The notes under the pieces: model-generated
Database searches by the model: none
Seen by the model: only the letters and a program-made list of their open reading frames with translations
Told to the model about the DNA's origin: nothing
NCBI GenBank assembly: GCA_035550055.1
Contig: DASZRO010000083.1
Location: 1-53,093 of the forward strand
Source of the DNA: Mycobacteriales bacterium
GTDB lineage: Bacteria; Actinomycetota; Actinomycetes; JAFAQI01
Length of the DNA stretch: 53,093 nucleotides
Direction of reading: 5' to 3'
In this document: positions 25,596 to 49,320 of the stretch, piece by piece
How positions within the stretch are numbered: position 1 is the stretch's first letter
How the letters are laid out: each line of letters starts with the position of its first letter
Translations under genes and position numbers: made by a program

Positions 25596-26570
25596 ATGAG
25601 TGACGCAGTCATCGAGGCGGAACACCTCGCCAAGCGTTACGGCGAGACCCAGGCCCTCGCCGGGGTGAGCTTCGCCGTGCCGGCGGGCACCGTGCTCGGC
25701 CTGCTCGGCCCCAACGGCGCGGGCAAGACCACCGCCGTCCGAATCCTCACCACGCTGGCGCTGCCGGACTCAGGCGCGGCGCGGGTCGACGGCATCGATG
25801 TCGCTTCCAACCCGGGCGAGGTACGCCGGCGGATCGGGGTCGCCGCTCAGGACGCGACGCTCGACGGCCTGCTGACCGGGCGGCAGAACCTCGCGCTCGT
25901 CGGGGAGCTGTGCGGTCTGGGCCGTGCCGCGTCCAAAGCGCGAGCGAGTGAGCTGCTCGAGGAGTTCGACCTGACCCACGCCGCAGACCGCGTGGTGAAG
26001 GGCTACTCGGGGGGCATGCGCCGCCGCCTCGACCTCGCCGCCAGCATGCTGACCCGACCACCCATCCTGTTCCTCGACGAGCCGACGACCGGACTCGATC
26101 CGACCAGCCGCGTCCGGGTGTGGGAGTCGATCCGGTCGCTGATCGCACAAGGGGTGACCTTGCTGCTGACGACGCAGTACCTCGACGAAGCCGACGCGCT
26201 CGCCGACCAGATCGTGGTGGTCGACCACGGCAGGGTCATCGCCGACGGCACACCGGAAGAGCTCAAGCGGCAGAGCCGCAACGCGCGGCTCGAGGTCACG
26301 CTGACCGAGTCGCATCACGACGCGGCTGCGGTGATCGAGTCACTGGTCGCGGGACGGGTGACGGTCGGCGACGACGGCCGGACCCTCAGCGCAGGGGTCG
26401 ACGCCGGGCCGGGCCTGGCCACCGAAGTGGTGCGAGCCCTCGATCAGGCCGGCATCCGGGTCGACGACATCGCCGTACGCCAGCCGTCACTCGACGACGT
26501 GTTCTTCGCCCTCACCGGCGAACACGTCGCGACGGCCGACGACGTGGAACTGGAAGAGGTGGCCTCATGA
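25596..26570 (+). CDS. DrrA-like ABC transporter ATP-binding subunit
   Basis: 324 residues. Walker [10 protein letters not shown] (38-46), signature YSGGMRRR, Walker [14 protein letters not shown] and a C-terminal extension (about 225-324) ending [13 protein letters not shown], the pattern of daunorubicin-resistance type exporters (DrrA). Energises efflux of a hydrophobic compound or antibiotic with the permease encoded next (4-base overlap ATGA). Controlled probably by the divergent TetR gene. The substrate is unknown. Confidence 0.9.
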
Positions 26571-27500: not shown

Positions 27501-29045
27501 ATGATCGAGCGGATGCGCGGTGACGCCGCGCTGTCGTCAGGGGGCAAGTACGTCGCGGCCGCGATCGCGGTCGCGCTGCTCGCTCATTACACCGATGGCC
27601 CGGCACAACAGCACCAGCACGTGCTGTACCTGTGGCTCGCGCTCGGCGTCGTGTCGGCGCTTTTGGTGCCGATGTACCCGAAGATCGTCGCGGCCGCGCC
27701 GGCGCTCGACATCCCGACGTTGGTGCTCATCGCCGGTCTCGACCTCGCGGCCGTGTTCGCCGTCGTCGAACTGACCGGCGGGGTGAGCGGACCGTTCTGG
27801 GTCCTGATCATGGTCAACACAACCGCAGCCGCGGTGATCGCGCCGAACCTGCTCCTCGCCTTGGCCGCCGCGCTGTTCTACGTCGGCGCGCTGGTCGGCG
27901 CGACCGCGTGGGCACACACCCTGACTCACGCCGACGCCGGGCCTCTCGTGGTCGTGTCCGCCTGCCTGCCACTCGTCGCGTTGCTCGGCCAGGCCGTCGC
28001 GTCGCGGCTGGAGACGCAACGTGCGCAGTCCGACGCCGAGCGCGAAAGCCTCCAGCGGACGGTGGTCGAGCTGACCGCCGCGCTGGCGCAGGCGGCGCGG
28101 GGTGACCTGTCGGTGCGCGTCGGGTCCGATGAGGCGTCCGCGGAGATGCTCGGCCAGCTGGCGACCGCGTTCGAAGACACCCTGGGCAACCTGCGCGGAC
28201 TCGTGGGCCAGATCCACACCGGCGGCGAGCAGATCGTCGCCTCGGCGCACCAGCTGCTCGCCAGCGCCGAGCAGCACGCGGCGTCGGCAACCGAGCAGTC
28301 CTCGGCCGTCACCGAGACGACCTCGACGATCGAAGAGCTGGCCGCGACGGCAGCGCAGATCGCCGAGACGTCGGAGTCAGTGGCGAGGTACGCCGCAGAG
28401 ACATTGCGTCACGCGGAGGACGGCCGGGAGGCGGTCTCGGCGAGCGTCGCCGCGATGGACACCATCGCCGCGCGGGTGGAGCAGATCAGCGGCCGGGCGG
28501 GCTCGCTCGGCGAGAAGGGCATGGAGATCGGGCGCATCCTCGACGTCATCAACGACCTGGCCGACCAGACCAACCTGCTGGCGCTCAACGCGGCCATCGA
28601 GGCGGCGCGCGCCGGCGAGAACGGCCGCGGTTTCGCGGTCGTCGCCGCGGAGGTCCGCAAGCTCGCCGAGCGCGCGCAGCAGTCGACCGGGCAGATCTCC
28701 GCGATCGTCGCCGAGATTCGCGCCGAGACCTCGGCCACGATCCTCGCCAGCGAGGAGGGCGCGAAAGAGGTGCGGGTCGGCTCCGAGCTCGCCCGCGGCG
28801 TGGTCGACGCGCTCGAGCGGATCAGCGGAATGGTCGACGAGACCACGACGGCGGCGAAGGAGATCAGCGTCGCCACGCAGCAGCAGCGCAGCGCGTCGGA
28901 ACAGGTCGTCGCGGCGATGACCCAGGTCTCCGACGTGTCGCGTCAGTACGCCGTCGGCTCGAAGCAGGCAGCTGCGGCTGCCGCTGAGCTCAACAACCTG
29001 GCCTCCCAGTTGCGCGGTTCGATCGCGCAGTTCCGCATCGCCTGA
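27501..29045 (+). CDS. Methyl-accepting chemotaxis protein with membrane-embedded N-terminus
   Basis: 514 residues. The N-terminal part (about 15-175) is almost entirely hydrophobic, with about six membrane helices and no extracellular sensor domain. After it come a HAMP-like linker ([16 protein letters not shown]) and a full cytoplasmic signalling domain with the hairpin tip ([20 protein letters not shown] split, then [19 protein letters not shown]) that contacts CheA/CheW. The N-terminal domain is similar to that of the third receptor at 51919. It probably senses something in or near the membrane. No che genes lie in this window. Start at 27501 or 27513 is uncertain. Confidence 0.88.
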
Positions 29046-34545: not shown

Positions 34546-36123
34546 GTGCCGATGAGACCGCAACTGTCCAGCCGGGCCGGCCTCGCGATCGGGGCGTTGT
34601 CGATCGCGCTTGCCGCAGGCTGCGGCAGCACGGTCGAGCCGTCGACCGAGCAGACGATCGGACCGATCAACGGCCTCGGCGTACCAAGCGTGACGATCGG
34701 CACCGCGCCGGCCACCACGACCGTTCCCGGTACGACGACAACGACTGCTCCGGGCGGGGCGACCGTGCCGGGACTGACCGGCAACGGCAAGAGCGGCGGC
34801 ACGGTGACCGCGCGGACGTCGACGGCGGCAACCGGCACCGGACCGGGCAGCACGTCCCCGGGCGCGACGACGACGCCGACCGGGACGCAGCCGACGCACG
34901 CCCCGGTCGAGACCGGCCCGATCACCGTCGGTTTCCTCACGACGGCGACGTCCAACGCGTCCTCGAGCGGCGCGTCGCTCGGCAACACGGTGACGGAGAC
35001 CAGCGTCGACCAGGCGCTCGTCAACGCGATCGACAAGCAGGGCGGGCTCGACGGTCGGCAGCTGAAGGTGGTGTTCGCGCACACCGACACCGGTTCGTCG
35101 AACTGGGACAACGACTTCCAGGCGGCGTGCGAGACGTTCACTCAGGATCATCACGTCGACGTCGTGCTCGGTTACGAGTTCAACTACGAGCCCGACTTCG
35201 AGTCCTGTCTGGCCAAGCAGGGCATCCCCCATCTGACCGACGGTTTCAACGTGCCCGGCACCGCGGAGCTCGCGCAGTACCCGCTGTTCTGGTCGCTCGA
35301 CGTGCCGACGATCGGGCAGCGTTCGATCGCGAAGTTCCAGGGTGCGATCAACACCGGGTTCCTGACGTCGAAGGACAAGCTCGGCATCCTGCTCGACGAC
35401 TGTCCCGGCACCCAGACGGCGTGGAAGGCGCAGGTGCTGCCGTTCCTCCTGTCACACCACATCGACGTGGCGTCGACGTTCTCCACGGCCTGCAGCACGG
35501 GAAACAACGCGGCCGTCACCTCGGCGATCGGCAGCCTCACCAACGGTCTGCTGAAGTTCCGCAGCGAGGGCGTCGACCGGATCAGCTTCGTGGCGGTCTC
35601 CGAGGCGCCGGTGCTCTACCTGGCCTCCACCGCCGCCAACGCGCAGGGCTATCGCCCCGGGTGGATCGTCTCCTCGCTCGGCCAGCTCGCGATCATCGGC
35701 GGCGAGTCGCCGATGCCGGAGATGCAGAACACCCACGGCTACGGGTGGCTGCCGAGCCAGGACGTGCCGCCGGCGTACGCCCCGAAGGAGAACGCCGCGC
35801 AGCACCGCTGCCTGTCGTTGCTGCACTCGCAGAAGGTTGACCCGAGGTCGGCAGCCGACTACGGCTACGCGTACAACGCGTGTGAGGCGGTGTTCGTCTA
35901 CGAGGCGGCGCTGAAGGCCGACGGCGGCAACTCCGACGGACAGGCCATCAGCAACGCGATCAGCAACTTGGGCAACTTCCAGAGCACGCTCAACCTGTAC
36001 GGCAAGTCGGTCTTCTCCTCCGCCCGTCGCAATGACGCGCCGGAGTACTACAAGCCGATCAACTGGGACGGCGGCTGTCATTGCTTCCGCTACGGCAGCC
36101 AGACCTACAAGATGCCGAGCTAG
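34546..36123 (+). CDS. Lipoprotein solute-binding protein of the importer
   Basis: 525 residues from GTG 34546 with AAGGGG upstream. Signal peptide with lipobox LAAGC, a long Thr/Pro/Gly-rich stalk (about 45-122), then a type I periplasmic-binding fold (ITVGFLTTATSNA..., VNAIDKQGGLDGRQLKVVFAHT) like Liv/branched-chain amino acid binding proteins. C-terminal GCHCFRY is nearly the same as in the paralogue at 23364. It sits just before the importer genes, so it probably delivers the ligand to them. The wide Liv-type family handles amino acids, amides, aromatic acids and steroid-related acids; the ligand here is unknown. Confidence 0.85.
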   Translation: MPMRPQLSSRAGLAIGALSIALAAGCGSTVEPSTEQTIGPINGLGVPSVTIGTAPATTTVPGTTTTTAPGGATVPGLTGNGKSGGTVTARTSTAATGTGPGSTSPGATTTPTGTQPTHAPVETGPITVGFLTTATSNASSSGASLGNTVTETSVDQALVNAIDKQGGLDGRQLKVVFAHTDTGSSNWDNDFQAACETFTQDHHVDVVLGYEFNYEPDFESCLAKQGIPHLTDGFNVPGTAELAQYPLFWSLDVPTIGQRSIAKFQGAINTGFLTSKDKLGILLDDCPGTQTAWKAQVLPFLLSHHIDVASTFSTACSTGNNAAVTSAIGSLTNGLLKFRSEGVDRISFVAVSEAPVLYLASTAANAQGYRPGWIVSSLGQLAIIGGESPMPEMQNTHGYGWLPSQDVPPAYAPKENAAQHRCLSLLHSQKVDPRSAADYGYAYNACEAVFVYEAALKADGGNSDGQAISNAISNLGNFQSTLNLYGKSVFSSARRNDAPEYYKPINWDGGCHCFRYGSQTYKMPS

Positions 36124-36132
36124 GGGCGCGTG

Positions 36133-37110
36133 ATGCCACGCAGCTACGGCGACCCGAGCAAGCATCGTCTGCCTATGCACATGCGGGCGCTGGTGAAGGC
36201 GAACGATCTCGCCCAGCGACTCAAGCTGGCGCCGTCGATGGGGGACTACATCACCAAGACGCCGCACGACGTGCGTCAGGTGGGTCATCCGGGATGGTGG
36301 ATGACCTACCGCATCAACCCGTCGGTCACGACCGACGAGATCAAGATCGACAGCCGCGGCGGTCCGCTGAAGCTGCGGGTCTATCGCCCGGCCGGCGCCG
36401 CGCCGGACGCCCCGATCGTGCTTTACATCCACGGCGGCGGGTTCATGCTCGGCGGCCTCGAAGCGTGCGCCTGGATCTGCGGTGAGATCGCGGCGCAGAC
36501 CGGCGCCGTACTAGCCGCGGTGGAGTATCGGCTCGCGCCCGAGCACCCGTTCCCGGCCGGCCTCGACGACTGCCGAGACGCCCTCGACTGGCTGGCCAAC
36601 GGCAACCTCGACGGCACCGACCCGAACCGGATCGCCGTGGCGGGGGACAGCGCGGGCGGCAACCTCAGCGCTGCGCTCTGCCTCGAGGTGCGAGACACCC
36701 GCGGCCCGGCGATCGCCCACCAGACGCTGATCTACCCGTTCCTCGACTCGAAGCTGCGTGGCCAGTCGTGGCGGGAGTTCGCGGACAGCGGCGTGAACCT
36801 CGACGCCGGCGAGATGATGGTTCAGGCGTACGGCGGAGCGGAGCGCGACAACCCGCTGGTCAGCCCGCTGCTCTCACCCGACCTGTCGAACCTGCCCCCG
36901 GCGTTCATCGTCAACTCCGACTACGACGTGCTGCGCGACGACGGGTTCGCCTACGCCGCCGCGTTGCGTGAAGCCGGCGTCGAGGTGCGCCACTCGAACT
37001 ACATCCGCGCGCCGCACGGCCTGCTGTCCATGCCACGGCTGCTGCCCGTCGCCCGGCAGATGATCGCCGAGATCACCGGTGAGATCAGCCGGCACCTGAC
37101 TGCGGCCTGA
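36133..37110 (+). CDS. Alpha/beta hydrolase, HSL-type esterase
   Basis: 325 residues. ATG 36133 has better spacing from AGGGG than GTG 36130. Oxyanion motif HGGGF, nucleophile GDSAGGN, Asp in NSDYDVLRDDG and His in APHGLLS form the hormone-sensitive-lipase type catalytic set. No signal peptide, so likely cytoplasmic. It may cleave imported esters to give acids for the CoA ligase. Nine bases follow the solute-binding gene, which supports one operon. Confidence 0.9.
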   Translation: MPRSYGDPSKHRLPMHMRALVKANDLAQRLKLAPSMGDYITKTPHDVRQVGHPGWWMTYRINPSVTTDEIKIDSRGGPLKLRVYRPAGAAPDAPIVLYIHGGGFMLGGLEACAWICGEIAAQTGAVLAAVEYRLAPEHPFPAGLDDCRDALDWLANGNLDGTDPNRIAVAGDSAGGNLSAALCLEVRDTRGPAIAHQTLIYPFLDSKLRGQSWREFADSGVNLDAGEMMVQAYGGAERDNPLVSPLLSPDLSNLPPAFIVNSDYDVLRDDGFAYAAALREAGVEVRHSNYIRAPHGLLSMPRLLPVARQMIAEITGEISRHLTAA

Positions 37111-37114
37111 TCTG

Positions 37115-37648
37115 ATGCTCAGCCGGGCAGTCGTCGTCGCAGCAGCGGGAGCGTTGTCCCTGCTGGGCACCGGCGGCTGCGCGACCAGCCTGCACGGGCT
37201 GGAGTTCCACAACGACAACCGGATGAAGATCGTCGAGCCGCACCAGAACGAGCTGGTCGCGAACCCGGTCACCCTCCGTTGGACGATGCGCGACTTCACG
37301 GTTGCCGGCCCCGGCGCCGGGCCGGTCAACGACGACACCGGCTACTTCGCGGTGTTCGTGGACCGCGCGCCGGTCAAGCCCGGGCAGACCCTGGCCGCCG
37401 TCAGCAAGCACACGCCGTCCTGCCAGCACACGACGTTGTGTACGACGAAGTCCTACCTCGCCTCCGAGCAGGTCTACACGACGACGAAGGACGCCGTCAC
37501 GCTGCCGGCCATCGCCGACTTGCTGAACAACCAGCTGTCGACGCAGTACCACACGGTGACCGTCGTCTTGATGAACACCGCCGGCGAGCGGATCAGCGAG
37601 AGCGCCTGGTCGGTGGAGTTCCGGATGCACTCCTCGGGAGTGACCTGA
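37115..37648 (+). CDS. Small secreted lipoprotein, unknown function
   Basis: 177 residues, starting four bases after the esterase stop. Signal peptide with lipobox GTGGC (C at about 22). The mature part has IVEPHQNELVANPVTLRWTMRDF and a beta-sandwich-like pattern recalling bacterial DUF4399-like or Ig-like modules, with two Cys (SCQHTTLC) near the middle that may form a disulphide. It lies inside the importer operon and may help capture the ligand outside the cell. Overlaps the next start by one base (TGATG). Confidence 0.7.
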   Translation: MLSRAVVVAAAGALSLLGTGGCATSLHGLEFHNDNRMKIVEPHQNELVANPVTLRWTMRDFTVAGPGAGPVNDDTGYFAVFVDRAPVKPGQTLAAVSKHTPSCQHTTLCTTKSYLASEQVYTTTKDAVTLPAIADLLNNQLSTQYHTVTVVLMNTAGERISESAWSVEFRMHSSGVT

Positions 37649-39864
37649 TGGCGCGCCGCAAGCCTGCTCCGGTGTCGGCGGCGGCGGTCGCCGACCAGGC
37701 CACGGCCGAGATCGAACGAACGAAGGCGAGTCTGCGCGACGAGGCCCGGCGAACCCTCGGGGTGACCGGCGAGGACGCCACCACCGAGAGCTTCCGGACG
37801 TTGTCGCGCCGGCACGGGCTGTCGGCGTACCCGATCATCGCCCTCGGGCTGCTCTTCGTCGCAGACGGCTTCCAGGGCAGCGCGCTCACCGTCCTCACCC
37901 CCAACGTCAGCGCTGCCCTGGGTCTCGGCATCACCGGCATCACCGCGGCGTACTCCCTCGCGGCGGTCGCCGCCTTCGCCTCGCCGCTGCCGATGGCGGC
38001 GCTCGCCCAACGCAAGCCGCGCCGCGCGATGCTGGCGATCGTCACCGGCCTCGGCTGGACGGTCACGACGCTGTTCACCGGTCTGGTGATCTCGACCGCG
38101 GGGTTGCTGGTGATCCTCGCGCTGGACGGGCTGTCTTCGGGCAGCGTCCGCGCCGTTCACGTCCCGCTGATCGTCGACAGCTACCACCCGGCGATGCGGG
38201 CGCGCGCGGTGTCGGCGTACCAAGCGCTGGGGCAGGCCGGCCTCGTCGCCAGCCCGCTGCTGGTGTCCCTGCTCGCGGGTCCGTTCAACCTGACGTGGCG
38301 CGGGATCTTCATCGCGCTCGGGCTGCTCTCGCTGCTGCTGACGTCGGTGTCGGTGTTCCTGCGCGACCCGGGCTTCGGCAAGTGGGACACCGAGCAGCTC
38401 AAGAGCAGCGTGCACGCAGTGCACGGTGAGGACGGGCTGCAGGCGTCGGACGTCGCCCTCGGCTTCTGGGAGATCTGCCGGCGGGTGACGATGATCCCGA
38501 CGGCCAGACGGCTGATGGCCGCGGCGACCGTGATCGGGATGATGCTCATCCCGTTCTCGACCTTCATCTCCTTCTTCCTGTTGCAGCGGTGGAACCTGGA
38601 CGCGAGCTCTCGCGGACTGTTCTTCGCCTACAGCAGCGCGATGTCGGTGGTGGCACTGCTCGTCTTCGGCGTCCGCGCCGAGCGTCAGTTCCGCCGCAGT
38701 CCTTCTGCGATGCTCCGCTCGACGGGCTGGCTGCTGTCGGGCGGCATCGTGTGCATCGGGTTCGGCGGGCTCTCGCCGTGGTTCGGCGGGATGCTCGCCG
38801 GCTTCGGGGTCGGCACCGGCCTGGTCTACGTGCTCCTGCCGGGCGTGTACCTCGCGCTGATGACGATCGTCCCGGCCAACATGCGTCCGCACGCGCAGTC
38901 GCTCGTCACCATCTTCATCGGCTTGGGCAGCCTGCTCGGCGCGTTGCTGCTCGGCAACATCGACGAGCAGTACGGCCCGCACGTCGCTCTCGTGGTGATC
39001 GCGGCGGTCGGGGTGTTCGGCGCGATCGTGGTGTCGAGCGCAGGTCGGTTCATCGACGCCGATCTCGATCGGATGATCGACGAGGTCCTGGAAGAGGAGG
39101 AGATCAAGCGGATCACCGCGTCCGGCACTCACCTCCCGATGCTCGCCGCCCGCGGCATCGACTTCTCCTACGGCCAGCTGCAGGTGCTCTTCGACGTCAA
39201 CTTCACCGTCGACGACGGCGAGATGGTTGCGCTGCTCGGCACCAACGGTGCCGGCAAGTCGACCCTGCTCAAGGTGATCTCGGGCATCGGGCTGCCCAGC
39301 AAGGGAAGCGTGCGGTTCCGCGGCCAGGAGATCACCTATCTCGACGCCGAGCGACGGCTGCGCCTGGGCATCACCCAGATCCCGGGCGGACGGGCCGTCT
39401 TCGGTCCGATGACCGTGCTCGAGAACCTGCGCAGCTACGGCTTCAGCCTCGACGTCTCGCGGCGTGAGCTCAACCGGTCGATCGAGGCCTGCTTCGCGGC
39501 GTTCCCTCGCCTCTACGAGCGGCGTACGTCGCTTGCCGCCACCCTGTCCGGCGGCGAGCAGCAGATACTCGGCCTGTCCAAGGCGCTGATGCTCCAGCCG
39601 AAGCTGCTCGTCATCGACGAGCTCAGCCTCGGCCTCGCGCCGGTCATCGTCGGTCAGCTGCTCGAGATGGTGAAGCAGATCAACGCCGCCGGCACCGCCG
39701 TCGTACTCGTCGAGCAGTCCGTCAACATCGCGCTGAACCTCGTCGATCACGCCTACTTCATGGAGAAGGGCGAGATGCGCTTCGACGGGCGAAGCGCCGA
39801 TCTGCTCGCTCGCGACGACCTGCTGCGGGCCGTCTTCCTGCAGGGCGCGGCGGTGGCCGGATGA
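37648..39864 (+). CDS. MFS transporter fused to a LivF-type ABC ATPase
   Basis: 738 residues from ATG 37648; upstream open frame overlaps the lipoprotein gene. Residues about 55-475 form a 12-helix major facilitator domain (IIALGLLFVADGFQGSALTV opening, ...HVPLIVDSYHPAMRARAVS.. in the middle). After an acidic linker (LEEEEIKR) a complete LivF-like ATPase follows: Walker A GTNGAGKST (about 530-538), signature LSGGEQQ, Walker B LLVIDELSLGLAP and H-loop-like VVLVEQSVN. Fusion of a secondary transporter with an ABC ATPase is rare. Together with the next gene it supplies all parts of a Liv-type importer, and the MFS part is extra. Confidence 0.92.
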   Translation: MARRKPAPVSAAAVADQATAEIERTKASLRDEARRTLGVTGEDATTESFRTLSRRHGLSAYPIIALGLLFVADGFQGSALTVLTPNVSAALGLGITGITAAYSLAAVAAFASPLPMAALAQRKPRRAMLAIVTGLGWTVTTLFTGLVISTAGLLVILALDGLSSGSVRAVHVPLIVDSYHPAMRARAVSAYQALGQAGLVASPLLVSLLAGPFNLTWRGIFIALGLLSLLLTSVSVFLRDPGFGKWDTEQLKSSVHAVHGEDGLQASDVALGFWEICRRVTMIPTARRLMAAATVIGMMLIPFSTFISFFLLQRWNLDASSRGLFFAYSSAMSVVALLVFGVRAERQFRRSPSAMLRSTGWLLSGGIVCIGFGGLSPWFGGMLAGFGVGTGLVYVLLPGVYLALMTIVPANMRPHAQSLVTIFIGLGSLLGALLLGNIDEQYGPHVALVVIAAVGVFGAIVVSSAGRFIDADLDRMIDEVLEEEEIKRITASGTHLPMLAARGIDFSYGQLQVLFDVNFTVDDGEMVALLGTNGAGKSTLLKVISGIGLPSKGSVRFRGQEITYLDAERRLRLGITQIPGGRAVFGPMTVLENLRSYGFSLDVSRRELNRSIEACFAAFPRLYERRTSLAATLSGGEQQILGLSKALMLQPKLLVIDELSLGLAPVIVGQLLEMVKQINAAGTAVVLVEQSVNIALNLVDHAYFMEKGEMRFDGRSADLLARDDLLRAVFLQGAAVAG

Positions 39865-42791
39865 GAGTCCAGCTCAAGTGGAAGTGGCTCGTCGCGGCGG
39901 CGGTCTTCGTCGCGGCGGTGGTGGTCGCGAAGCTCGTGCTGATCGTGCTCGGCCACCACGGCGTGATCGACACGTCGGCCACGCCGATGCAGGTCGTCGT
40001 CCTGGGCGGAATGACCGGGATGACCTACGGCCTGCTCGGCGTCGGCCTGGTGCTTGTCTACCGCAGCAATCGCATCATCAACTTCGCGCACGGCAACATC
40101 GGTGCCTTCGGCGCAGCGTTCTTCGGGGTCGCGGCGGTCAAGTGGCACGTGCCGTACTGGATCGCCTTCATTCTGGCGATGGCGCTGTCCGGCCTCGTCG
40201 GCGTGGGCACCGAGGCGGCCGCGGTACGCCGGCTGCGCAACGCGCCGCTGCTGATGAGCGTCGTCGTGACCCTCGGCATCGGGCAGTCCCTCGTCGTCTT
40301 CTCGCTGGTCGTCAACTCGACGGCGAGCGCCGGCGCGACGTACCCGAGCCCGCCGTTCATGCCGACGTTCCACGTGCAGTCGTTGCTCGTGACGCAGGCG
40401 TACTCAGGGATGCTGATCCTCTCGCCGATCCTCGTGGTCGGTCTGGCGATCTTCCTTCGGGTGAGCAAGTTCGGGCTGGGCCTGCGCGCCGCCGCAGCCA
40501 ATCCCGAAGCTGCGCGGATGGCCGGCATCTTCGCCGGGCGGATGTCGTCGCTGGCCTGGGCGATCGCGGGGAGCATCTCGGCGTTCACCGCGATCCTCAT
40601 CGCACCCGCGCAGGGCTTCGTGAGCGGCGACGAGTTCGGGCCGGACCTGATCCTTCGGGCGATGACCGCCGCTGCGATCGGGCGGATGGACAACCTGCCG
40701 GCGACGTTCTTCGCGGGCATCGGTCTCGGCATCGTCGAGAACGTCCTGGAGTGGGACACCAACAACACCGGCGTCGTCCAGATGGCGCTGTTCGTGCTCG
40801 TGCTCGCGGTCCTCCTGTTGCAACGCCGCCGCGGCGGCCGCGCCGAGGAGAAGAGCAACTGGGCGTCGGTCCAAGCGCTGCGCCCGCTACCGGAGCAGCT
40901 GCGGCGACTGCCCAGCGTGCGGCTGCTCGGCCCTTCGATCGCGATTGCGTTCTTCGGCCTGCTGGCGGTGGTGCCGGTGGTGTTCACCAACAACGCGACG
41001 CAGACCGTCACCTTCTTCATCGCGGCAGCCATCGTCGGTTTGTCGATCACGGTGCTGACCGGTCTCGGCGGCCAGCTGACCCTCGGCCAGTTCATGGTGG
41101 CGGGCATCGGCGCGGTCGTGTCGTTCCAGGTGTCCAGTCGCGTCGGTGACTTCCCGCTGGCGCTGCTCTACGCCGGATTGGCCGCCGGCGTCGTGTCGGT
41201 GCTCGTCGGGCTGCCGGCACTTCGGCTGCGCGGTCTGATGCTGACCATCACCACGTTGGCGTTCGCGATCGCCGGACCCGCCTGGCTGCTCGGTCGCGGT
41301 TTCATGTTCGGCGACGGTGTGGCGCCCGGCGTACCGATCGTTGACGGTCGGGCGCTCGACACCGGCCACGAGTACTACTACTTCGCCCTCGTGCTGTTCT
41401 TCATCAGCTTCGTGATCTGCGCCAACGTGCGCCGCGGTGGTTTCGGCCGACTGCTCGTCGCGATCCGCGACAACGAGGACAACGCGCGGGCGTTCACCAT
41501 CCGAGCCAGCCTCGTGAAGATGCAGGGCTACCTCATCGCCGGGTTCGTCGCCGGCATCGGCGGTGCGACGTACGCGCACTCGCTGTCCTCGGTCGATGCG
41601 TCGGTGTTCTCCGATGACTTGTCGATCAAGGTCGTCGTGATGACGGTGCTCGGTGGGATCTCCTCGTTGGCGGGACCGATCATCGGGTGCGCGTGGATTA
41701 TCGGCATCCCGAAGCTGCCGAAGCTCGGCAACCTCGGGCTGGCCGCGACGTATTTCGGAGCGACGGCGATGATCCTGTGGCGTCCCAACGGCTTGATCAG
41801 CTTCGTCGAGACTCCGCGCCGCCTCGTCGTCACCGCGCTCGCCCGGCTGCACGGGGTGGACGCGAATGAGGCGTTCCGCCGCGACCGATCGGTGGCGGCG
41901 GCCGAGGTCGCGACGGTCGGTGCTGCGGCGATCCCGGCGCGTCCAGCCGTGTTGGTGTCGGTGCCGGTGGCGGTGCCGGTGCAGCGCGCCGCCGTCCGGC
42001 CGACGATCCTCGAGGTGCGCGGCCTGGTGAAGCGCTTCGGCGGCGTCACGGCCGTCAACGACGTGTCGTTCTCAGTGCTTCGCGGCGAGACGCTCGGGCT
42101 GATCGGGCCGAACGGTGCGGGCAAGACCACGACCTTCGAGCTGCTCGGCGGCTTCACCAAGCCGGACCAGGGCACCGTTCACTTCGACCGCCGCGACGTC
42201 TCGCACCTCGGCCCGGAGTCTCGCGCGCGACTCGGTTTGATCCGGTCGTTCCAGGACGCCGCGCTGTTCCCGACGATGACGATCGAGGAGGTCGTGACGC
42301 TGGCGCAGGAGCGGATCAGCGGGTCGTCGTTCCTCGGCTCGGTGCTCGGCATCTCCGGTCGCTCCGAACGAGCCAAGCGGGAGCGCTCCCGTGAGCTGAT
42401 CGGGTTGCTCGGCCTCGACGCCTACCGCGACCGCCAGATCCGTGAGCTGTCGACCGGCACGCGCCGCATCAGTGAGATCGCCTGCCTGGTCGCCCTCGAG
42501 CCGACCTGCCTGCTGCTCGACGAGCCGTCGTCGGGCATCGCGCAGCGCGAGACGGAAGGGTTGGGCACACTGCTCGAGGACCTCAAGCGCCGGCTCGATC
42601 TGACGTTGATCGTGATCGAGCACGACATCCCACTGATCATGGGAATCTCGGACCGGATCGTGGCGATGGCCGACGGTTCAGTGATCTGCGAGGGCCTGCC
42701 GGAAGTCGTCCGCAGCAACCCGATGGTGGTCGACGCCTACCTCGGCGGCAGCATCACCGCGATCGAACGATCGGGGGCCGGCGTTGGCTAG
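39861..42791 (+). CDS. LivH-LivM-LivG fusion: two permeases and an ATPase in one chain
   Basis: 976 residues, four-base overlap with the previous gene. Residues about 30-320 match LivH (GMTYGLLGVGLVLVYRSNRIINFAHGN), 350-665 LivM (GLSITVLTGLGGQLTLGQF, LVAIRDNEDNARAFTI) and 715-976 LivG ([53 protein letters not shown]). The linker before LivG is Ala/Val/Pro-rich. The ABC signature is LSTGTRR instead of LSGGQ. With LivF from the MFS fusion this gives a complete importer of the branched-chain amino acid class in two proteins. Confidence 0.92.
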   Translation: MRVQLKWKWLVAAAVFVAAVVVAKLVLIVLGHHGVIDTSATPMQVVVLGGMTGMTYGLLGVGLVLVYRSNRIINFAHGNIGAFGAAFFGVAAVKWHVPYWIAFILAMALSGLVGVGTEAAAVRRLRNAPLLMSVVVTLGIGQSLVVFSLVVNSTASAGATYPSPPFMPTFHVQSLLVTQAYSGMLILSPILVVGLAIFLRVSKFGLGLRAAAANPEAARMAGIFAGRMSSLAWAIAGSISAFTAILIAPAQGFVSGDEFGPDLILRAMTAAAIGRMDNLPATFFAGIGLGIVENVLEWDTNNTGVVQMALFVLVLAVLLLQRRRGGRAEEKSNWASVQALRPLPEQLRRLPSVRLLGPSIAIAFFGLLAVVPVVFTNNATQTVTFFIAAAIVGLSITVLTGLGGQLTLGQFMVAGIGAVVSFQVSSRVGDFPLALLYAGLAAGVVSVLVGLPALRLRGLMLTITTLAFAIAGPAWLLGRGFMFGDGVAPGVPIVDGRALDTGHEYYYFALVLFFISFVICANVRRGGFGRLLVAIRDNEDNARAFTIRASLVKMQGYLIAGFVAGIGGATYAHSLSSVDASVFSDDLSIKVVVMTVLGGISSLAGPIIGCAWIIGIPKLPKLGNLGLAATYFGATAMILWRPNGLISFVETPRRLVVTALARLHGVDANEAFRRDRSVAAAEVATVGAAAIPARPAVLVSVPVAVPVQRAAVRPTILEVRGLVKRFGGVTAVNDVSFSVLRGETLGLIGPNGAGKTTTFELLGGFTKPDQGTVHFDRRDVSHLGPESRARLGLIRSFQDAALFPTMTIEEVVTLAQERISGSSFLGSVLGISGRSERAKRERSRELIGLLGLDAYRDRQIRELSTGTRRISEIACLVALEPTCLLLDEPSSGIAQRETEGLGTLLEDLKRRLDLTLIVIEHDIPLIMGISDRIVAMADGSVICEGLPEVVRSNPMVVDAYLGGSITAIERSGAGVG

Positions 42792-43818
42792 GTCCGGCTC
42801 GCGTCGTCGATGGCTCGCGGTTGCGACCGCCGCGGTGAGTCTCCTGCTTGCCGGGGGTGGCGTCGCCTCCGCGCTCACGGTCGGCACGGACCGCATCGCC
42901 GCCGCGGCGAGGTTGGTGGGCGACGCCCGGGTCGGTGACAAGGCCGAGGCGTGGTACGCCTCGCCATCAGGTGCGCTGTGCCTGCCCCTGGTCGGCTGCG
43001 TGCCGGTGCCGGTCTCGCTGCCCGCCTACCCCGCAGGGACGCTGCACGTCGGGGTGACCCTTGGACTGACGTCGACCCGCAGCTACGTCGTACCCGACCT
43101 GCCCTCCTCCGCGACGGCGCTGCCGGCTTCCGGCACCTTGATGGTGCCGGTGGACAGCAGCCCCCAGGCCGGAACATTCGATCTCGGCTCGGCCCGGATC
43201 AAGGCCTGTCTCACCACCGGACAGCCGCCCTCGCAGTCGTCCGCAAAGAGCGAGTCGACGGGCGCGGCGCCGACCGTCGACTGCGCGGTGTCGGCCCCGG
43301 CTCGTTACGACGCGGAGATCCACGCCTTCCGCGTCGACCTGACGCCGTTCCTTGCGAAGTGGCGGCACGGGCGGCCCGAACGCGGGATCGCGCTGCTGCC
43401 GGCTGCCGGAGGCGCCGCGCTCGCCGACTGGCAGGTCGCCCTCGACGGCAAGGGCGCCGCTGCCACCTCGATCTACTCGCTGTTCGCCACCACCTCGCCG
43501 CACCAGGCTGCGCCGACGCCGTCGACGAGTCCGAGCACCACGGCCACCGTCCCGCCGACGGCGGTGGTGCCGCCCGGGCCCGGCGTGGCGCTGCCCGGGA
43601 TCGGTGAGGTCAGCCCGGAGAGCTCGCCACCGGCGATCGCCGCGCCGGTTCAACCGGCGGTGTACTTCGTGCGCTCGACCCGCTTTCGCTATCCCGCCAT
43701 CTTCATCGCGCCGCTCGCGATCCTCGCCGGCGTGGTGTTCTTCGCCCGACTGTTCACGGGTACGACGACCCGTCCCCGCAACAAGATGACCGTGCACCGG
43801 ATCGAGAATGGGAGCTGA
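42784..43818 (+). CDS. Exported protein anchored by a C-terminal helix
   Basis: 344 residues; TTG 42784 overlaps the previous stop. N-terminal signal peptide (WLAVATAAVSLLLAGGGVASA), an extracellular beta-rich part (about 40-235) with two Cys pairs, a Pro/Thr/Ser-rich stalk (about 240-290) and a membrane helix (about 300-320) with a short basic tail. The block FRVDLTPFLAKWRHGRPERGIALLPA recalls DNRLRE-type adhesive domains; this is a weak resemblance. A cell-surface accessory of the importer is plausible from operon position. Confidence 0.7.
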   Translation: MARSGSRRRWLAVATAAVSLLLAGGGVASALTVGTDRIAAAARLVGDARVGDKAEAWYASPSGALCLPLVGCVPVPVSLPAYPAGTLHVGVTLGLTSTRSYVVPDLPSSATALPASGTLMVPVDSSPQAGTFDLGSARIKACLTTGQPPSQSSAKSESTGAAPTVDCAVSAPARYDAEIHAFRVDLTPFLAKWRHGRPERGIALLPAAGGAALADWQVALDGKGAAATSIYSLFATTSPHQAAPTPSTSPSTTATVPPTAVVPPGPGVALPGIGEVSPESSPPAIAAPVQPAVYFVRSTRFRYPAIFIAPLAILAGVVFFARLFTGTTTRPRNKMTVHRIENGS

Positions 43819-43826
43819 CGGCAGCG

Positions 43827-44156
43827 ATGGCTGACTTGGACACGAGAGCGCCGCGGTCCCGGCTGCGGGCCATCACCGACCCTTCCTCGACCGCCTTGGT
43901 GTACCTCGGCATCGTCGTCGCGGCGGTCGGCTTCGTCCTGCTGGTGATCGGCTGGTCCGACGTGGCAGGCACGATCGACGTGGGCCGGCAGATGCCGTAC
44001 CTGATGTCGACCGGGCTTCCCGGGATCGCGTTGGTCATGGTCGGGCTGGTGCTGGTCAACATCAGCGTCCGGCGGCAGGACAGCGCAGAGCGGGCTCGCC
44101 AGATGAGCGCCCTGACCGAGTCGCTCGACAAGCTGCGCAGCTCTGATCAGCGATGA
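43827..44156 (+). CDS. Small two-helix membrane protein
   Basis: 109 residues with two membrane helices (about 25-46 and 63-83) and a helical cytoplasmic tail (RRQDSAERARQMSALTESLDKL). Eight bases after the preceding gene. Together with the next gene (four-base overlap) it probably forms a small membrane complex. No family recognised; possible helper of the fused importer or anchored protein. Confidence 0.65.
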   Translation: MADLDTRAPRSRLRAITDPSSTALVYLGIVVAAVGFVLLVIGWSDVAGTIDVGRQMPYLMSTGLPGIALVMVGLVLVNISVRRQDSAERARQMSALTESLDKLRSSDQR

Positions 44157-44425
44157 ACCGCTTGCGCGCCGTATTGGTGCTCGCCGGGATCCTCGTCGCC
44201 GGCTTTGCCGGATTCGGCTGGGCGTGGCACGGCGCGAAGCACGCGACGTACGTCCCGTTGCAGGTGCCGTGGGTGATGTCCGGCGGGCTCGGCGCGCTCG
44301 CGCTCGTAGGCCTTGCGGCGGCCGCATGGCACATCGACCTCGCCCGACGCGACGACGTCGATCATCGCGCCGAGTGGGACCGCTTCACCGAAGATCTCAG
44401 CGAGGTCCTCGCCGAGCGCCGCTGA
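44153..44425 (+). CDS. Small two-helix membrane protein, last gene of the series
   Basis: 90 residues, overlapping the previous gene by four bases. Two membrane helices (about 5-24 and 41-60) and an acidic tail (DDVDHRAEWDRFTEDLSEVLAERR). Like the gene before it in size and topology, so the two may pair. Function unknown. Confidence 0.65.
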   Translation: MNRLRAVLVLAGILVAGFAGFGWAWHGAKHATYVPLQVPWVMSGGLGALALVGLAAAAWHIDLARRDDVDHRAEWDRFTEDLSEVLAERR

Positions 44426-44439
44426 CCGGCCTCCCTTTT

Positions 44440-44525
44440 CCCGAAGTAGCACACAAAGTGGCCCTCGAACCGGACACCCGGCCACAAACTAGGGCAGCCG
44501 CGGCGGCCTTGTGTGCTACTTCGGG
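44440..44525. repeat. Long inverted repeat between convergent genes
   Basis: Perfect 17-bp arms (44440-44456 CCCGAAGTAGCACACAA, 44509-44525) with 52 bases between, which hold a second GTGGCC/GGCCAC pair (44458-44463 and 44480-44485). The right arm carries the stop codon of the minus-strand TetR gene. Likely a two-way terminator, built like the elements at 21791 and 30872 but different in sequence. Confidence 0.85.
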
Positions 44526-45115
44526 CCCGTGGCGGGGGCGAGCAGCAGGTGCGTCATGTGCTTCCAGGCGGCGATTCTGGCCGCGGTGGACCGCTCGCTG
44601 CGGATCACGCGGGCTCGCGCTGCGCCGCGCATCGCGTCGACGATGACGAGCAGCGCCACCTCGAAGTTCGGGTGGTGGACGTACTCCGCCCACTGCGTCG
44701 CCGCCATGTCGCGGATCTGGTCGCGCAGCATCCGGTTCTGACGGGTCAACGCCTCGCGGAGCTCGGCGTCGTTGCGTGCGGCCGACCACAGCTCGTCGGC
44801 AGCGACGGCGAGTGGGCTGTTGAAGGTACGCCAGAGCGCGTCGATCCCGTCATCGATCCCGCGATGCGTGGGCGAGGCGTAGAACGCTTCGCGCTGCGCG
44901 GCGAAGAGCTCGTCGATCGCCGCGACCAGAAGTTCCGCCCGCGACGGGAAGTGGTGCAGGAGCGCGCCGCGTGAGACCCCTGCGCGACGCTGCACCTCGA
45001 GCGTGGTCGTCGCGGCATGGCCGAGCTCGACCAGCGAGTCGACGGTCGCGGCGATGATCACCGCCCGCGTCGCCGCACTGCGCTCGGCTTGCGTGCGCCG
45101 TACGGCGACCGGCAT
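44516..45115 (-). CDS. TetR-family regulator, last gene of the beta-oxidation operon
   Basis: 199 residues. HTH region with TTTLEVQRRAGVSRGALLHHF and a helical C-terminal domain. ATG overlaps the stop of the dehydrogenase gene (TGATG), so it is translated with it and probably controls the operon by feedback through the palindrome at 49343-49364. An acyl-CoA effector is likely by context. The C-terminus (LLLAPATGPK) runs into the inverted repeat. Confidence 0.87.
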   Translation of the reverse strand: MPVAVRRTQAERSAATRAVIIAATVDSLVELGHAATTTLEVQRRAGVSRGALLHHFPSRAELLVAAIDELFAAQREAFYASPTHRGIDDGIDALWRTFNSPLAVAADELWSAARNDAELREALTRQNRMLRDQIRDMAATQWAEYVHHPNFEVALLVIVDAMRGAARARVIRSERSTAARIAAWKHMTHLLLAPATGPK

Positions 45116-46338
45116 CAGGACAGCAAGCCGCGAGCGACGTGAGTGATCTGGACCTCGTTGCTGCCGGCGTAGATCATCAGCGACTTCGCGTCCCGGGCCA
45201 GCTGTTCGACGCGGTACTCGGACATGTAGCCGTTGCCGCCGAACAGCTGCACCGCCTCCATCGCGACCTCGGTCGCCGCCTGCGAGGAGTAGTACTTCAT
45301 CGCGGAGGCTTCGGCCAACGTCGGTGTCTTGCCCGCGCGGCGCAGCTCGATGGTGCGGAACACCATGTTCTGCACGTTCTGGCGCGCGACCTCCATGTTG
45401 GCGAGCTTGAGCTGGATCAGCTGGAACTCACCGATCTTCTGCCCCCACAGCTCACGGTTCTTCGCGTAGTCGATGCACAGCGACAGGCACTCCTCGATCA
45501 CGCCGAGCGACATCGCGGCGATCCCGACCCGCTCGGTCGTGAAGTTGGAGCGCGCGCTCTCGCGGCCGTCCGCCGCGCCGGATCCGCCGCCGTCGAGCAG
45601 CCGGTCAGGCTCCAGGTACACGTCGGAGAAGAACAGCTGTCCGGTGGGCGAGGAATGGATGCCCATCTTCTTGAACGGCTTCGACTGGGTGAAGCCGTCC
45701 ATCCCGGAATCGAGGACGAACGTCAGCACCGGCCGGCGGCGCTTGTCCTCGCTGGTGCCGTCGTCGAGCTTCGCGTAGACGACGGCGGTGTCGGCGTACG
45801 GGCCGTTGGTGATGAACGTCTTCTCGCCGTTGAGGACGTAGCCGTCGCCGTCCTTGCGGACGGTCGTCGTCATCCCGCCGAACGCGTCGGAGCCGGAGTT
45901 CGGCTCGGTGATCGCCCACGCGCCGACCTTGTTGAACGTCATCAGGTCCTTCGCCCAGCGCTCCTTCTGCTCGATCGAGCCGCGGGACATGATCGTGCCG
46001 CCGGCCAGACCCATGCTGACGCCCATCGCGGCGGTCAGGCCCATCGCGACCTTGGTCAGCTCGATCGACAGGATCAGCTGCATCGCGTCGTCGCCGCCGG
46101 CACCGTCGTCCGAACCGCCGGTCGAGCGCGTCGCGCCGTCCTTCTCCTTGGCGATTCGCTTGTCGAACGAGTCGGCCATCATCGCGTCGATGCCGAAGGT
46201 CGAGAACAGCTTGCGAATCAAGGCGTACGGCGGGAGCTCACCTGAGTCCAGCTCGTCGGCGTGCGGCCGAATCTCCGCGTTGACGAAGTCCCGGATCGCG
46301 TCGCGGATGGCGAGCTCGGTGTCTGACCAGCCGATCAC
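45115..46338 (-). CDS. Acyl-CoA dehydrogenase with IVD-type catalytic Glu placement
   Basis: 407 residues. FAD enzyme of the first beta-oxidation step. Family blocks: AWAITEPNSGSDAFG (140-154), ELWGQKIGEFQLIQ, and QLFGGNGYMSEYRVEQLARDAK. The classical Glu in the YEGT motif is replaced by Ala391 (IYAGSNEVQ). Isovaleryl-CoA dehydrogenases have the same change and use a Glu in an LER motif; here E269 in NFTTERVGIA lies at that place. An acidic/Ser-Gly-rich insert (about 65-83) is unusual. One base separates it from the SDR gene. Confidence 0.9.
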   Translation of the reverse strand: MIGWSDTELAIRDAIRDFVNAEIRPHADELDSGELPPYALIRKLFSTFGIDAMMADSFDKRIAKEKDGATRSTGGSDDGAGGDDAMQLILSIELTKVAMGLTAAMGVSMGLAGGTIMSRGSIEQKERWAKDLMTFNKVGAWAITEPNSGSDAFGGMTTTVRKDGDGYVLNGEKTFITNGPYADTAVVYAKLDDGTSEDKRRRPVLTFVLDSGMDGFTQSKPFKKMGIHSSPTGQLFFSDVYLEPDRLLDGGGSGAADGRESARSNFTTERVGIAAMSLGVIEECLSLCIDYAKNRELWGQKIGEFQLIQLKLANMEVARQNVQNMVFRTIELRRAGKTPTLAEASAMKYYSSQAATEVAMEAVQLFGGNGYMSEYRVEQLARDAKSLMIYAGSNEVQITHVARGLLS

Positions 46339-47220
46339 TTATTCACTCCAGGCGGTGAGGCGCTGCTCGACCTCGGTGATCGTCCAAGGCTTGTCGGTCT
46401 CGGTCTTGCGACCGTAGGTCCAGCCGGTGAGCTCCGAGATCGAGCTGCCCGACACTTCGTACACCTTGCCCGTCACGTCGCAGTTCGCAGTCGACAGGTA
46501 TGCGACGAGCGGGGAGATCGCGGCGGGGTCGAACGCGTCGAGCGCGTCGGCGCCTTCCGGCTTTGCCATCAGCTGGTCGATGCCCGGCGTCGCCAGGGTG
46601 AGCCGCGTGCGAGCCAGCGGCGTGATCGCGTTGACCCGCACGCCGTAGCGGCCGAGCTCCTGGGCGGCGACCAGCGTCATCGCCGCGATGCCCGCCTTCG
46701 CTGCGCCGTAGTTGACCTGACCCGGGTTCGGCAGCGTCGTACCCGAACCGGAGGAGGTGTTGACGACGGCGGCGTTGACGGCCGCGCCCGCCTTGCTCTG
46801 GTCCTTCCAGTACTCCGCCGCGTGCCGCAGCACGCAGAAGTGACCCTTGAGGTGTACGGCGATGACCGCGTCCCACTGCTCCTCTGACAAGCCCGCGAGG
46901 AACCCGTCGCGCAGGATGCCGGCGTTGTTGATCACTACGTCGAGCTGACCGAACTCCTCGATGGCCTGGGTCACCAGACCCTTCGCGCCGTCCCAGGTCG
47001 CGACGTTGTCGGTGTTCGCGACCGCGTGCCCGCCGAACGCTTTGATCTCCTCGACGACCTCGTGCGCCGGTCCGGCGTCGGAGCCGGAGCCGTCGTTCGC
47101 GCCGCCGAGGTCGTTGATCACGACGGCGGCGCCTTCACGGGCGAACAGCAGCGCATGCTCGCGCCCGATCCCACGGCCGGCTCCGGTGATGACAGCCACG
47201 CGTCCGTCGAGTGCTCCCAC
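46339..47220 (-). CDS. SDR dehydrogenase of the MFE-2 (R)-3-hydroxyacyl-CoA type
   Basis: 293 residues from GTG 47220 with AGGAGA upstream. Cofactor motif TGAGRGIG (12-19), NNAG (98-101), and catalytic S156/S157, Y171, K175. The long first loop (LGGANDGSGSDAG) and overall form are like the dehydrogenase unit of multifunctional enzyme type 2, which oxidises (3R)-hydroxyacyl-CoA. Beside an R-specific hydratase, this makes sense for a beta-oxidation path through R intermediates. NAD is the likely cofactor: Asp37 follows strand 2. Confidence 0.88.
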   Translation of the reverse strand: MGALDGRVAVITGAGRGIGREHALLFAREGAAVVINDLGGANDGSGSDAGPAHEVVEEIKAFGGHAVANTDNVATWDGAKGLVTQAIEEFGQLDVVINNAGILRDGFLAGLSEEQWDAVIAVHLKGHFCVLRHAAEYWKDQSKAGAAVNAAVVNTSSGSGTTLPNPGQVNYGAAKAGIAAMTLVAAQELGRYGVRVNAITPLARTRLTLATPGIDQLMAKPEGADALDAFDPAAISPLVAYLSTANCDVTGKVYEVSGSSISELTGWTYGRKTETDKPWTITEVEQRLTAWSE

Positions 47221-47231
47221 TGAAAGGTCTC

Positions 47232-47241
47232 CTATATATAG
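47232..47241. promoter_or_regulatory. CTATATATAG palindrome between MaoC and SDR genes
   Basis: A ten-base AT-rich palindrome in the 49-base gap, just beyond the SDR ribosome-binding site. Very AT-rich for this DNA. It could be a -10 box of an internal promoter or an mRNA processing site; no -35 match is clear. Confidence 0.35.
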
Positions 47242-47269
47242 ATGCGTGCCGGTCCGTTGAGCGGCGCGG

Positions 47270-48127
47270 TCAGTCTGCGATGACGGCGAGGCCGTCGCGG
47301 ATCACGAGGTCCTCGCCCACTCGGGTCTCGTAGGCGTAGTTGGTCGCACCGGCCGACGAGCCGGTGGCGAAGAACGTCGTCTCGATGTCCTGACCGGGGA
47401 TGACCGGCTTGGAGAAGCGCACCGCGAGACGGCGCAGCCGCTCGGTGTGGCCGTTGCCGAGCTCGGTCAGCGCGGCCCACGACGTGAACGCCATCGAGCA
47501 CAGGCCGTGGGCGATGATGCCCGGCAGCCCGACGGACTTCGCGAACTCCGCATCGAGGTGAATCGGCATCGGGTCACCCGATGCCGGCGAGTAGCGGAAC
47601 GTCTGGTCCTCGTCGACGTGTTGCACCGTCTTCGCCACCGGCGACAGGCCCGACGCCGCGGAGTCGAAGCGGTGGTCCGGCGCCTGCTCGCCCACGGTCT
47701 CGCCGGCGTCGATCCCGCGGATGAACGTCGACACGTACTGCTCGTTGACGAGCTCGCCGTTCGCGTCACGCGACTCGATGTACACGGTGCCGACGGTGCC
47801 GCTCGCCTTGCCCGCGTAGCCGACGACCTTGCCCTTGGAGGTGAGCTGGTCGCCGGCCTTGATCGGACGGTGGAAGGTGAAGTCCTGCTCGCCGTGCAGC
47901 ACGAAGGGCGCGATGCTGTCGGGTGCGACCGCGAACAGCTGGCTCAACAGGATGTCGAAGATCGGTACGACGGCGAAGACCGGCGGTGCGATCTCGCCGG
48001 ACAGGTGCGCCGCGATTGGGTCGTTGGTCGCCGCGGCGTACTGTGCGATCCGCTCGGCGGTGACGTCGAAGTGCTTCTCCGCGCTCCAGACCCCGACGCC
48101 GTCCGGGTTGAACTTCGTCTCGCTCAT
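47270..48127 (-). CDS. Double-hotdog MaoC-type enoyl-CoA hydratase 2
   Basis: 285 residues from ATG 48127, which shares a base with the thiolase stop. N-terminal hotdog domain (DFTFHRPIKAGDQLTSKGKV region) and C-terminal hotdog with the active-site motif PIHLDAEFAKSVGLPGIIAHG, as in peroxisomal hydratase 2. It adds water to trans-2-enoyl-CoA to give the (3R)-hydroxy form, which is the substrate of the SDR encoded next. The upstream open frame (to 48388) overlaps the thiolase and is not used. Confidence 0.9.
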   Translation of the reverse strand: MSETKFNPDGVGVWSAEKHFDVTAERIAQYAAATNDPIAAHLSGEIAPPVFAVVPIFDILLSQLFAVAPDSIAPFVLHGEQDFTFHRPIKAGDQLTSKGKVVGYAGKASGTVGTVYIESRDANGELVNEQYVSTFIRGIDAGETVGEQAPDHRFDSAASGLSPVAKTVQHVDEDQTFRYSPASGDPMPIHLDAEFAKSVGLPGIIAHGLCSMAFTSWAALTELGNGHTERLRRLAVRFSKPVIPGQDIETTFFATGSSAGATNYAYETRVGEDLVIRDGLAVIAD

Positions 48128-49320
48128 CAGGACGCCCGCTTGTACGCCGTGACGACCGCGGCGCCGCCGAGCCCGATGTTGTGCTGGAGCGCGACCTTGA
48201 CGTTGTCCACCTGGCGCGCGTCCGCGTCGCCGCGCAGCTGCCAGGTGAGCTCGGCGCACTGCGCGAGGCCGGTGGCGCCCAGCGGGTGGCCCTTGGAGAT
48301 CAACCCGCCGGAGGGGTTGACGACCCAGCGCCCGCCGTACGTCGTGTCGTTGTTGTCGACCAGCTTGCCGCCCTCGCCTTCCGCGCACAGCCCGAGCGCC
48401 TCGTAGGTCAGCAGCTCGTTGGCGGAGAAGCAGTCGTGCAGCTCGATGACCTGGACGTCGTCGGCGCTGATGCCCGCCTGCTCGTAGACCTTGCGCGCGG
48501 CTTCCTTGCTCATGTCGTAACCCACGAGCGTGGCGGCCGAGTTGTTCTCGAACGTGCTGCGCATGTCGGTGACCATCGCCTGCCCGACGATCTCGATCGC
48601 GCGGTCGCCGAGACCGTGCTCGTCGACGAACTTCTCACTCGCGATGACGGCGGCGCCCGACCCGTCGGAGGTCGGCGAACACTGCAGCTTGGTGAGCGGC
48701 AGCTTGTCGTAGATCACTTTCGACGCCTTGATCTCGTCGAGGGAGTAGACGTCCTGGAACTGCGCGTACGGGTTGTTCGCGGAGTGGCGGTGGTTCTTCT
48801 CGCCGATCTTCGCGAAGTGGTCGGGCGTGGTGCCGTACTTCTCCATGTGCTCGACGCCGGCCGCACCGAACATCCACGGCGCCAGCGGGAACGCGAGCTC
48901 GTACTTGTCGGTCAGCGCGACCACGTGCTTCTGCATCGGGTTCTCGCGGTCTTCGAACGTCGACTGGAGCGAACCGCGCTGCATCTTCTCGAAGCCGAGG
49001 GCCAGGGCGCAGTCGGCAACGCCGCTGCGGACCGCCTGGTTGGCGAGGTAGAGGGCGGTCGAGCCGGTCGAGCAGTTGTTGTTGACGTTGATCACCGGGA
49101 TGCCGGTCAGGCCGAGCTCGTAGACCGCGCGCTGGCCGCAGGTCGACTCGCCGTACACGTAGCCGACGTACGCCTGCTCGACCTTGTCGTAGGAGATGCC
49201 CGCGTCCTCGAGGGCCTTTGTGCCGGACTCGCGTGCCATGTCGGGGTAGTCCCACTCGCGGCTGCCGGGCTTTTCGAACTTCGTCATCCCAACGCCGATG
49301 ACGTATGTCTTCGCGGGCAC
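48127..49320 (-). CDS. SCPx-type thiolase
   Basis: 397 residues from GTG 49320 with AGGAGA. Nucleophile Cys83 in [16 protein letters not shown], and [14 protein letters not shown] match the SCPx/acetyl-CoA acetyltransferase-like thiolases, which often cleave branched or steroid-type acyl-CoA. First gene of the operon (thiolase, hydratase, SDR, dehydrogenase, TetR). Together these can carry a full beta-oxidation turn. Steroid or branched-chain substrates are possible but not shown. Confidence 0.9.

Follow-up and report, generated by a model that had tools for sequence, protein, structure and literature searches.

A LivF-type ABC ATPase fused to an MFS carrier domain in a Liv-type importer operon of Actinomycetota

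The two largest groups of transporters, ABC transporters and MFS carriers, differ in their energy source. A single gene in contig DASZRO010000083.1 of a Mycobacteriales bacterium (assembly GCA_035550055.1) encodes a member of each group in one chain; the whole stretch of 53,093 nt that was analysed is referred to here as the window. The locus raises the question of what an MFS carrier does when it is covalently joined to an ABC ATPase, i.e., whether it imports, exports or acts as a lock. Nothing relevant to MFS-ABC fusions was found in the literature searched; most subscription journals lay outside the scope of that search, and prior notice is possible. The fusion belongs to a widespread family of Actinomycetota that is apparently undescribed.

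The MFS-LivF open reading frame lies on the + strand, with its ATG start at 37648, overlapping the stop of the preceding gene, and the end of its stop codon at 39864. It encodes a protein of 738 aa in which Pfam places MFS_1 at residues 68-398 (3.6e-27) and ABC_tran at residues 515-658 (2.7e-26). An AlphaFold2 model with 51 family members as input has a mean pLDDT of 91 and a pTM of 0.89, and in it an N-terminal helix precedes the 12 helices of the MFS fold, which are followed by a stalk helix and then by a nucleotide-binding domain that is complete. A preliminary description of this DNA had proposed an MFS domain with a full set of helices joined to an ABC ATPase, and both points are borne out by Pfam and the model. 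It had further suggested that both halves may work; each does look functional from sequence and predicted structure, and whether the MFS part imports, exports or locks is a real question. A frameshift or an assembly artefact was ruled out, as every one of the 51 aligned family members, which come from Actinomycetota, scores for both Pfam domains.

The C-terminal half (residues 497-738; 39136-39861, + strand) was assigned as a LivF-type ABC ATPase domain by NCBIfam, motif alignment and structure comparison. LivF is its top NCBIfam model (7.5e-58), with a score below the equivalog cut-off, which would make it a divergent LivF. Residues 496-735 align to the Thermotoga LivF-like ATPase 1ji0 with a Z of 32.2. 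In the family alignment the Walker A, signature, Walker B Glu and D-loop are intact in 51 of 51 members or nearly so, and the H-loop position is occupied by Gln (Q690) in every one of the 51. The earlier statement that all nucleotide motifs are present is thus nearly right, with the H-loop as the exception. Since 1ji0 likewise has a Gln at this position, the change is apparently characteristic of LivF proteins rather than a sign of decay. The joint between the two halves is a stalk helix (residues 469-491; 39052-39120, + strand), found with good confidence in the AlphaFold2 model and supported by the alignment. The gap between MFS and ATPase measures 13-14 residues in nearly all members of the window's clade, and linker length is almost constant inside each clade of the family.

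The fusion is flanked on the + strand by genes of a Liv-type importer. A divergent LivK-type substrate-binding protein is encoded at 34546-36123; it was identified by its family profile, which matches solved Leu/Ile/Val-binding proteins (best 1.3e-08), while a comparison with Pfam alone gave no significant match. Directly downstream of the fusion, at 39861-42791, is a LivH-LivM-LivG fusion of 976 aa, comprising both importer permeases and the second ATPase, with two BPD_transp_2 stretches by Pfam and LivG as the top NCBIfam match. Its start overlaps the MFS-LivF stop by four bases (ATGA). The locus therefore has the features of Liv/HAAT-type importers (TC 3.A.1.4; LivKHMGF; 1ji0), namely a LivK-type binding protein, LivH/LivM permeases, LivG and a LivF-type ATPase, the last with the H-loop Gln. 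It differs from them in that LivF bears a 12-TM MFS carrier and in that LivH, LivM and LivG are in one chain. Because no other LivF is present in the operon, the ATPase half is most simply taken as the LivF subunit of the importer, which the preliminary description had overlooked. A drug-efflux MFS protein with an unrelated ATPase was rejected, as the ATPase is LivF-type and lies in a Liv operon.

Four MFS-LivF fusions are present in the source genome, the other three being 64, 54 and 39% identical to that of the window. A scan of genome contigs with the window MFS half revealed only three close relatives. Several Liv systems of the same genome have a LivF without an MFS half. Among 394 genomes of the class, 29 have a match to the window MFS half, in four cases by an unfused MFS protein only; in a sample of the phylum the figure is 18 of 396 genomes. 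Some genomes have several copies of the family. LivHM permeases adjoin the fusion in all 26 fused loci with long flanks, and of 26 other loci, for which the flanks are short, 24 show a Liv component. The family falls into three clades. Clade I, which includes the window, and clade III have MFS-LivF with LivHMG, and clade II, the sister of clade I, has MFS-LivF-LivG in one chain together with separate LivHM. The clade II-type chains are about 950 aa or more in length; MFS-LivF-LivG chains are found at L046, L066, L067, L075, L076, L078, L081, L082, L084, L085 and L091-L095. A search of plasmids gave one good relative, in Embleya, where it is unannotated, and a clade II query against plasmids gave weaker matches, some of them annotated as plain MFS transporters.

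The same main clades appear in the tree of the MFS half and in that of the ATPase half, an agreement that points to an old fusion. In a tree taken without branch support, MFS-less LivF proteins of the same genome are placed among the fused ones. From this interspersion the MFS half would appear to have been gained or lost more than once, and it would be dispensable for Liv-type transport generally, which counts against the reading of the system as a composite importer. By sequence, some unfused MFS proteins (L043, L044, L045, L047 and L083) also belong to clade II. No Liv genes lie in L069, which covers a wider stretch around L043, and the MFS half may there have been freed from the fusion.

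Several further genes accompany the system. A probable lipoprotein of 177 aa (37115-37648, + strand) has a lipobox-like GCA and a predicted beta-sandwich, and its gene overlaps the MFS-LivF start. This extra lipoprotein, a further difference from known Liv/HAAT-type importers, is found at 15 of the 17 clade I loci examined (the window; L009, L010, L016-L018, L050-L058) and was absent from the clade II, clade III and MFS-less loci examined. The family has no Pfam match, and structure comparison of the model yielded weak beta-sandwich/FnIII matches only, with nothing below E 0.001. An MFS protein that works with a lipoprotein is on record in Actinomycetota: Rv1410 is reported to work with LprG in lipid transport (PMC10576003). 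That pair is not known to include an ATPase fusion, in contrast to the family described here, and the lipoprotein here is a predicted beta-sandwich without a close match among solved structures.

The same gene run has an alpha/beta hydrolase at 36130-37110 (+ strand; Abhydrolase_3 by Pfam, hormone-sensitive-lipase-like). Downstream of LivH-LivM-LivG, a secreted protein (42784-43818, + strand) has a hydrophobic segment at its C-terminus, an AWY motif near its N-terminus and no Pfam family; relatives are found beside clade I systems at L009, L010, L011, L016, L018, L050, L051 and L054. Two small predicted membrane proteins follow on the + strand, one of 109 aa (43827-44156) that is conserved near clade I systems, and one of 90 aa (44153-44425) with related copies near other clade I systems. 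A beta-oxidation cluster on the − strand (44516-49320) faces the transporter operon and encodes a TetR regulator, an acyl-CoA dehydrogenase, an SDR, a HadA/HadB-like hydratase and a lipid-transfer-protein-like thiolase; an acyl-CoA ligase and lipase-like hydrolases are also among the genes of the window. At 23364-24920 there is a second LivK-like binding protein with no adjoining Liv permeases, followed by a DrrA-type ABC ATPase (25596-26570) and an MCP-type chemoreceptor (27501-29045).

The MFS half (residues 61-465; 37828-39042, + strand) has 12 predicted TM helices, and Pfam, the AlphaFold2 model and structure comparison all place it in the 12-TM MFS fold. A direct sequence search of the PDB with the window MFS half found nothing and a profile was required; the profile matches HnSpns (6e8j) at 1e-39, DgoT at 1e-28 and Spns1 at 2e-26. 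Residues 57-485 align to human Spns1 over 408 residues with a Z of 36.4, the top structural match, with OxlT, VMAT2 and DgoT close behind. Judged by profile and model, the MFS half is nearest to the Spinster lipid carriers (HnSpns, human Spns1/Spns2), which give both the best profile and the best structural match, and to DgoT. The ACS/AAHS-type symporters (DgoT, PcaK-like) are the second-best profile match; they share an acidic residue in TM1 with the window and a DxxD with clade II, but their second acidic TM1 residue is a Gln in most of the window's clade, and the MFS half scores below the NCBIfam cut-offs for ACS/AAHS-type families. ABC domains are not known from those families, and the covalent fusion to an ABC ATPase likewise distinguishes the present protein from Spinster carriers.

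In HnSpns, D41 and E129 are protonation switches with which R42 and R122 act, and D87 of motif A is part of a charge relay (PMC9440201). In the alignment D41, R42, R122 and E129 correspond to Q76, G77, L157 and S164 of the window, and the motif A Asp, in the TM2-TM3 loop, corresponds to Q121. None of these residues is kept in any clade I member (n=20). It should be noted that the motif A Asp is common, not universal, in MFS proteins. Clade II keeps D41 (15/15), R42 (13/15), R122 (15/15) and D87 (15/15), with E129 not retained, and clade III has D87 in 11 of 11 members and R122 in most. The equivalents of W102, T106, W206, D142 and R91 are mostly or fully retained in clade I, a likeness to Spinster carriers. 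The preliminary description had proposed an alignment of the MFS proton and substrate residues, and had held that loss of key helices or motifs across the family would leave a mere membrane anchor; such motifs are lost throughout the window's clade and not family-wide, clade II keeping most of them, and the helices are all present.

Other polar residues are conserved in clade I. D73 (TM1) and H171 (TM4) are found in 20 of 20 members, D177 is invariant and D160 (TM4) is 90% conserved; the D73 position is nearly invariant, as Asp or Glu, in clades II and III as well. Judged by helix position, one turn separates D73 from the lost D41 and D160 from R122, and two turns separate H171 from E129; D73, D160 and H171 are on a similar face and may line the cavity. 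The loss of the HnSpns residues does not prove a loss of proton coupling, as D73, D160 and H171 could replace them.

These residues bear on whether the MFS half is an independent carrier on a tether, i.e., a self-sufficient secondary transporter or facilitator, exporting a pathway product or importing a related acid for example, for which fusion to LivF secures only co-expression and co-localisation. The complete MFS fold, the kinship to proton symporters and Spns carriers, the presence of most proton-coupling residues in clade II and the existence of unfused relatives are consistent with such a carrier, and the buried D73, D160 and H171 could make another coupling site. However, the window's clade has lost the motif A Asp and every HnSpns coupling residue that was tested, the stalk is short and constant where a tether would be variable, and the family as a whole retains the fusion, its two halves giving the same main clades. 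An independent carrier is possible, though we consider it doubtful.

Conservation also has a bearing on the role of the MFS half. In the clade I core, the MFS half has a median pairwise identity of 56%, below the 66% of LivHM and the 83% of the LivF domain and above the 25% of the substrate-binding protein. Among its best-conserved stretches are TM1 and TM4, the TM6-TM7 loop on the cytoplasmic side (RDPGFG) and the stalk. This level of identity, the conserved stretches and the short gap before the ATPase speak for a working part that is closely joined to the ATPase, over a loose tether or an anchor. A rival role is that of a scaffold or regulator, a non-transporting MFS half that holds, locks or regulates the Liv importer, e.g., as a ligand-sensing limit on the ATPase. 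The loss of motif A and of the coupling residues would fit such a role, as would the conserved TM6-TM7 loop (RDPGFG..D) and the stalk on the ATPase side and the coexistence of MFS-less Liv systems in the genome. Against it, the conserved buried polar and glycine/proline positions are typical of a carrier that moves, and conservation of the MFS half nears that of the permeases; a non-transporting role is quite unlikely. An inert membrane anchor for LivF, though LivF subunits normally have no membrane part and the canonical motifs are gone in the window's clade, is very improbable, as the persistence of the fold, the constant-length stalk and the conserved buried D73, D160 and H171 make a mere anchor unlikely for clade I, 12 helices, invariant buried charges and this degree of identity are needless for one, and the sister clade retains carrier residues.

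The reading that we favour, and to which we give about an even chance, is that of a Liv importer in which a divergent Spns-like carrier, attached to LivF, makes up a third membrane module. It builds on the domains, operon, family and residue changes seen in the sequence and on the fold and conserved stalk of the model. The protein would be the LivF ATPase subunit of a branched-chain amino acid type importer, with a covalently attached MFS half resembling Spinster carriers and anion symporters. Most likely the LivF half partners the LivG domain encoded next door in LivH-LivM-LivG, and the pair would most likely drive uptake of a substrate that the LivK-type binding protein brings. For the MFS half, which sits on a short helical stalk, the likeliest role is within this complex, on a substrate that is amphipathic or an organic acid; it may exchange or clear a related compound, or pass or gate the imported one. 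Its movement would be tied to the ATPase cycle, and not to the usual Spns proton network. This substrate class is inferred from the Spns/ACS kinship together with the neighbouring acyl-CoA ligase, lipase-like hydrolase and beta-oxidation genes; the other genes of the window suggest a lipid- or steroid-like acid.

A secondary carrier that gains an ATPase partner has a precedent by analogy in ArsB, which can also be powered by its ATPase partner ArsA (PMC13381914). However, the carrier and ATPase families there are unrelated to those of the fusion, and ArsA does not belong as an ABC subunit to another transporter. A stronger form of the favoured reading, in which the window's clade is a primary-active MFS whose Spns-like carrier has abandoned its proton network and draws on ATP hydrolysis by the attached LivF, within LivHMG, to power alternating access, is unlikely as matters stand; if true, two unrelated transport folds would be served by one ATPase pair. 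As far as the sequences go, ATP may now run or gate the clade I carrier. The family provides a ready comparison between a clade that keeps most of the proton-coupling residues and one that lacks them, which bears on the possibility of an MFS carrier that ATP runs or gates; the fusion also raises the question of what role a third membrane module may have in an ABC importer.
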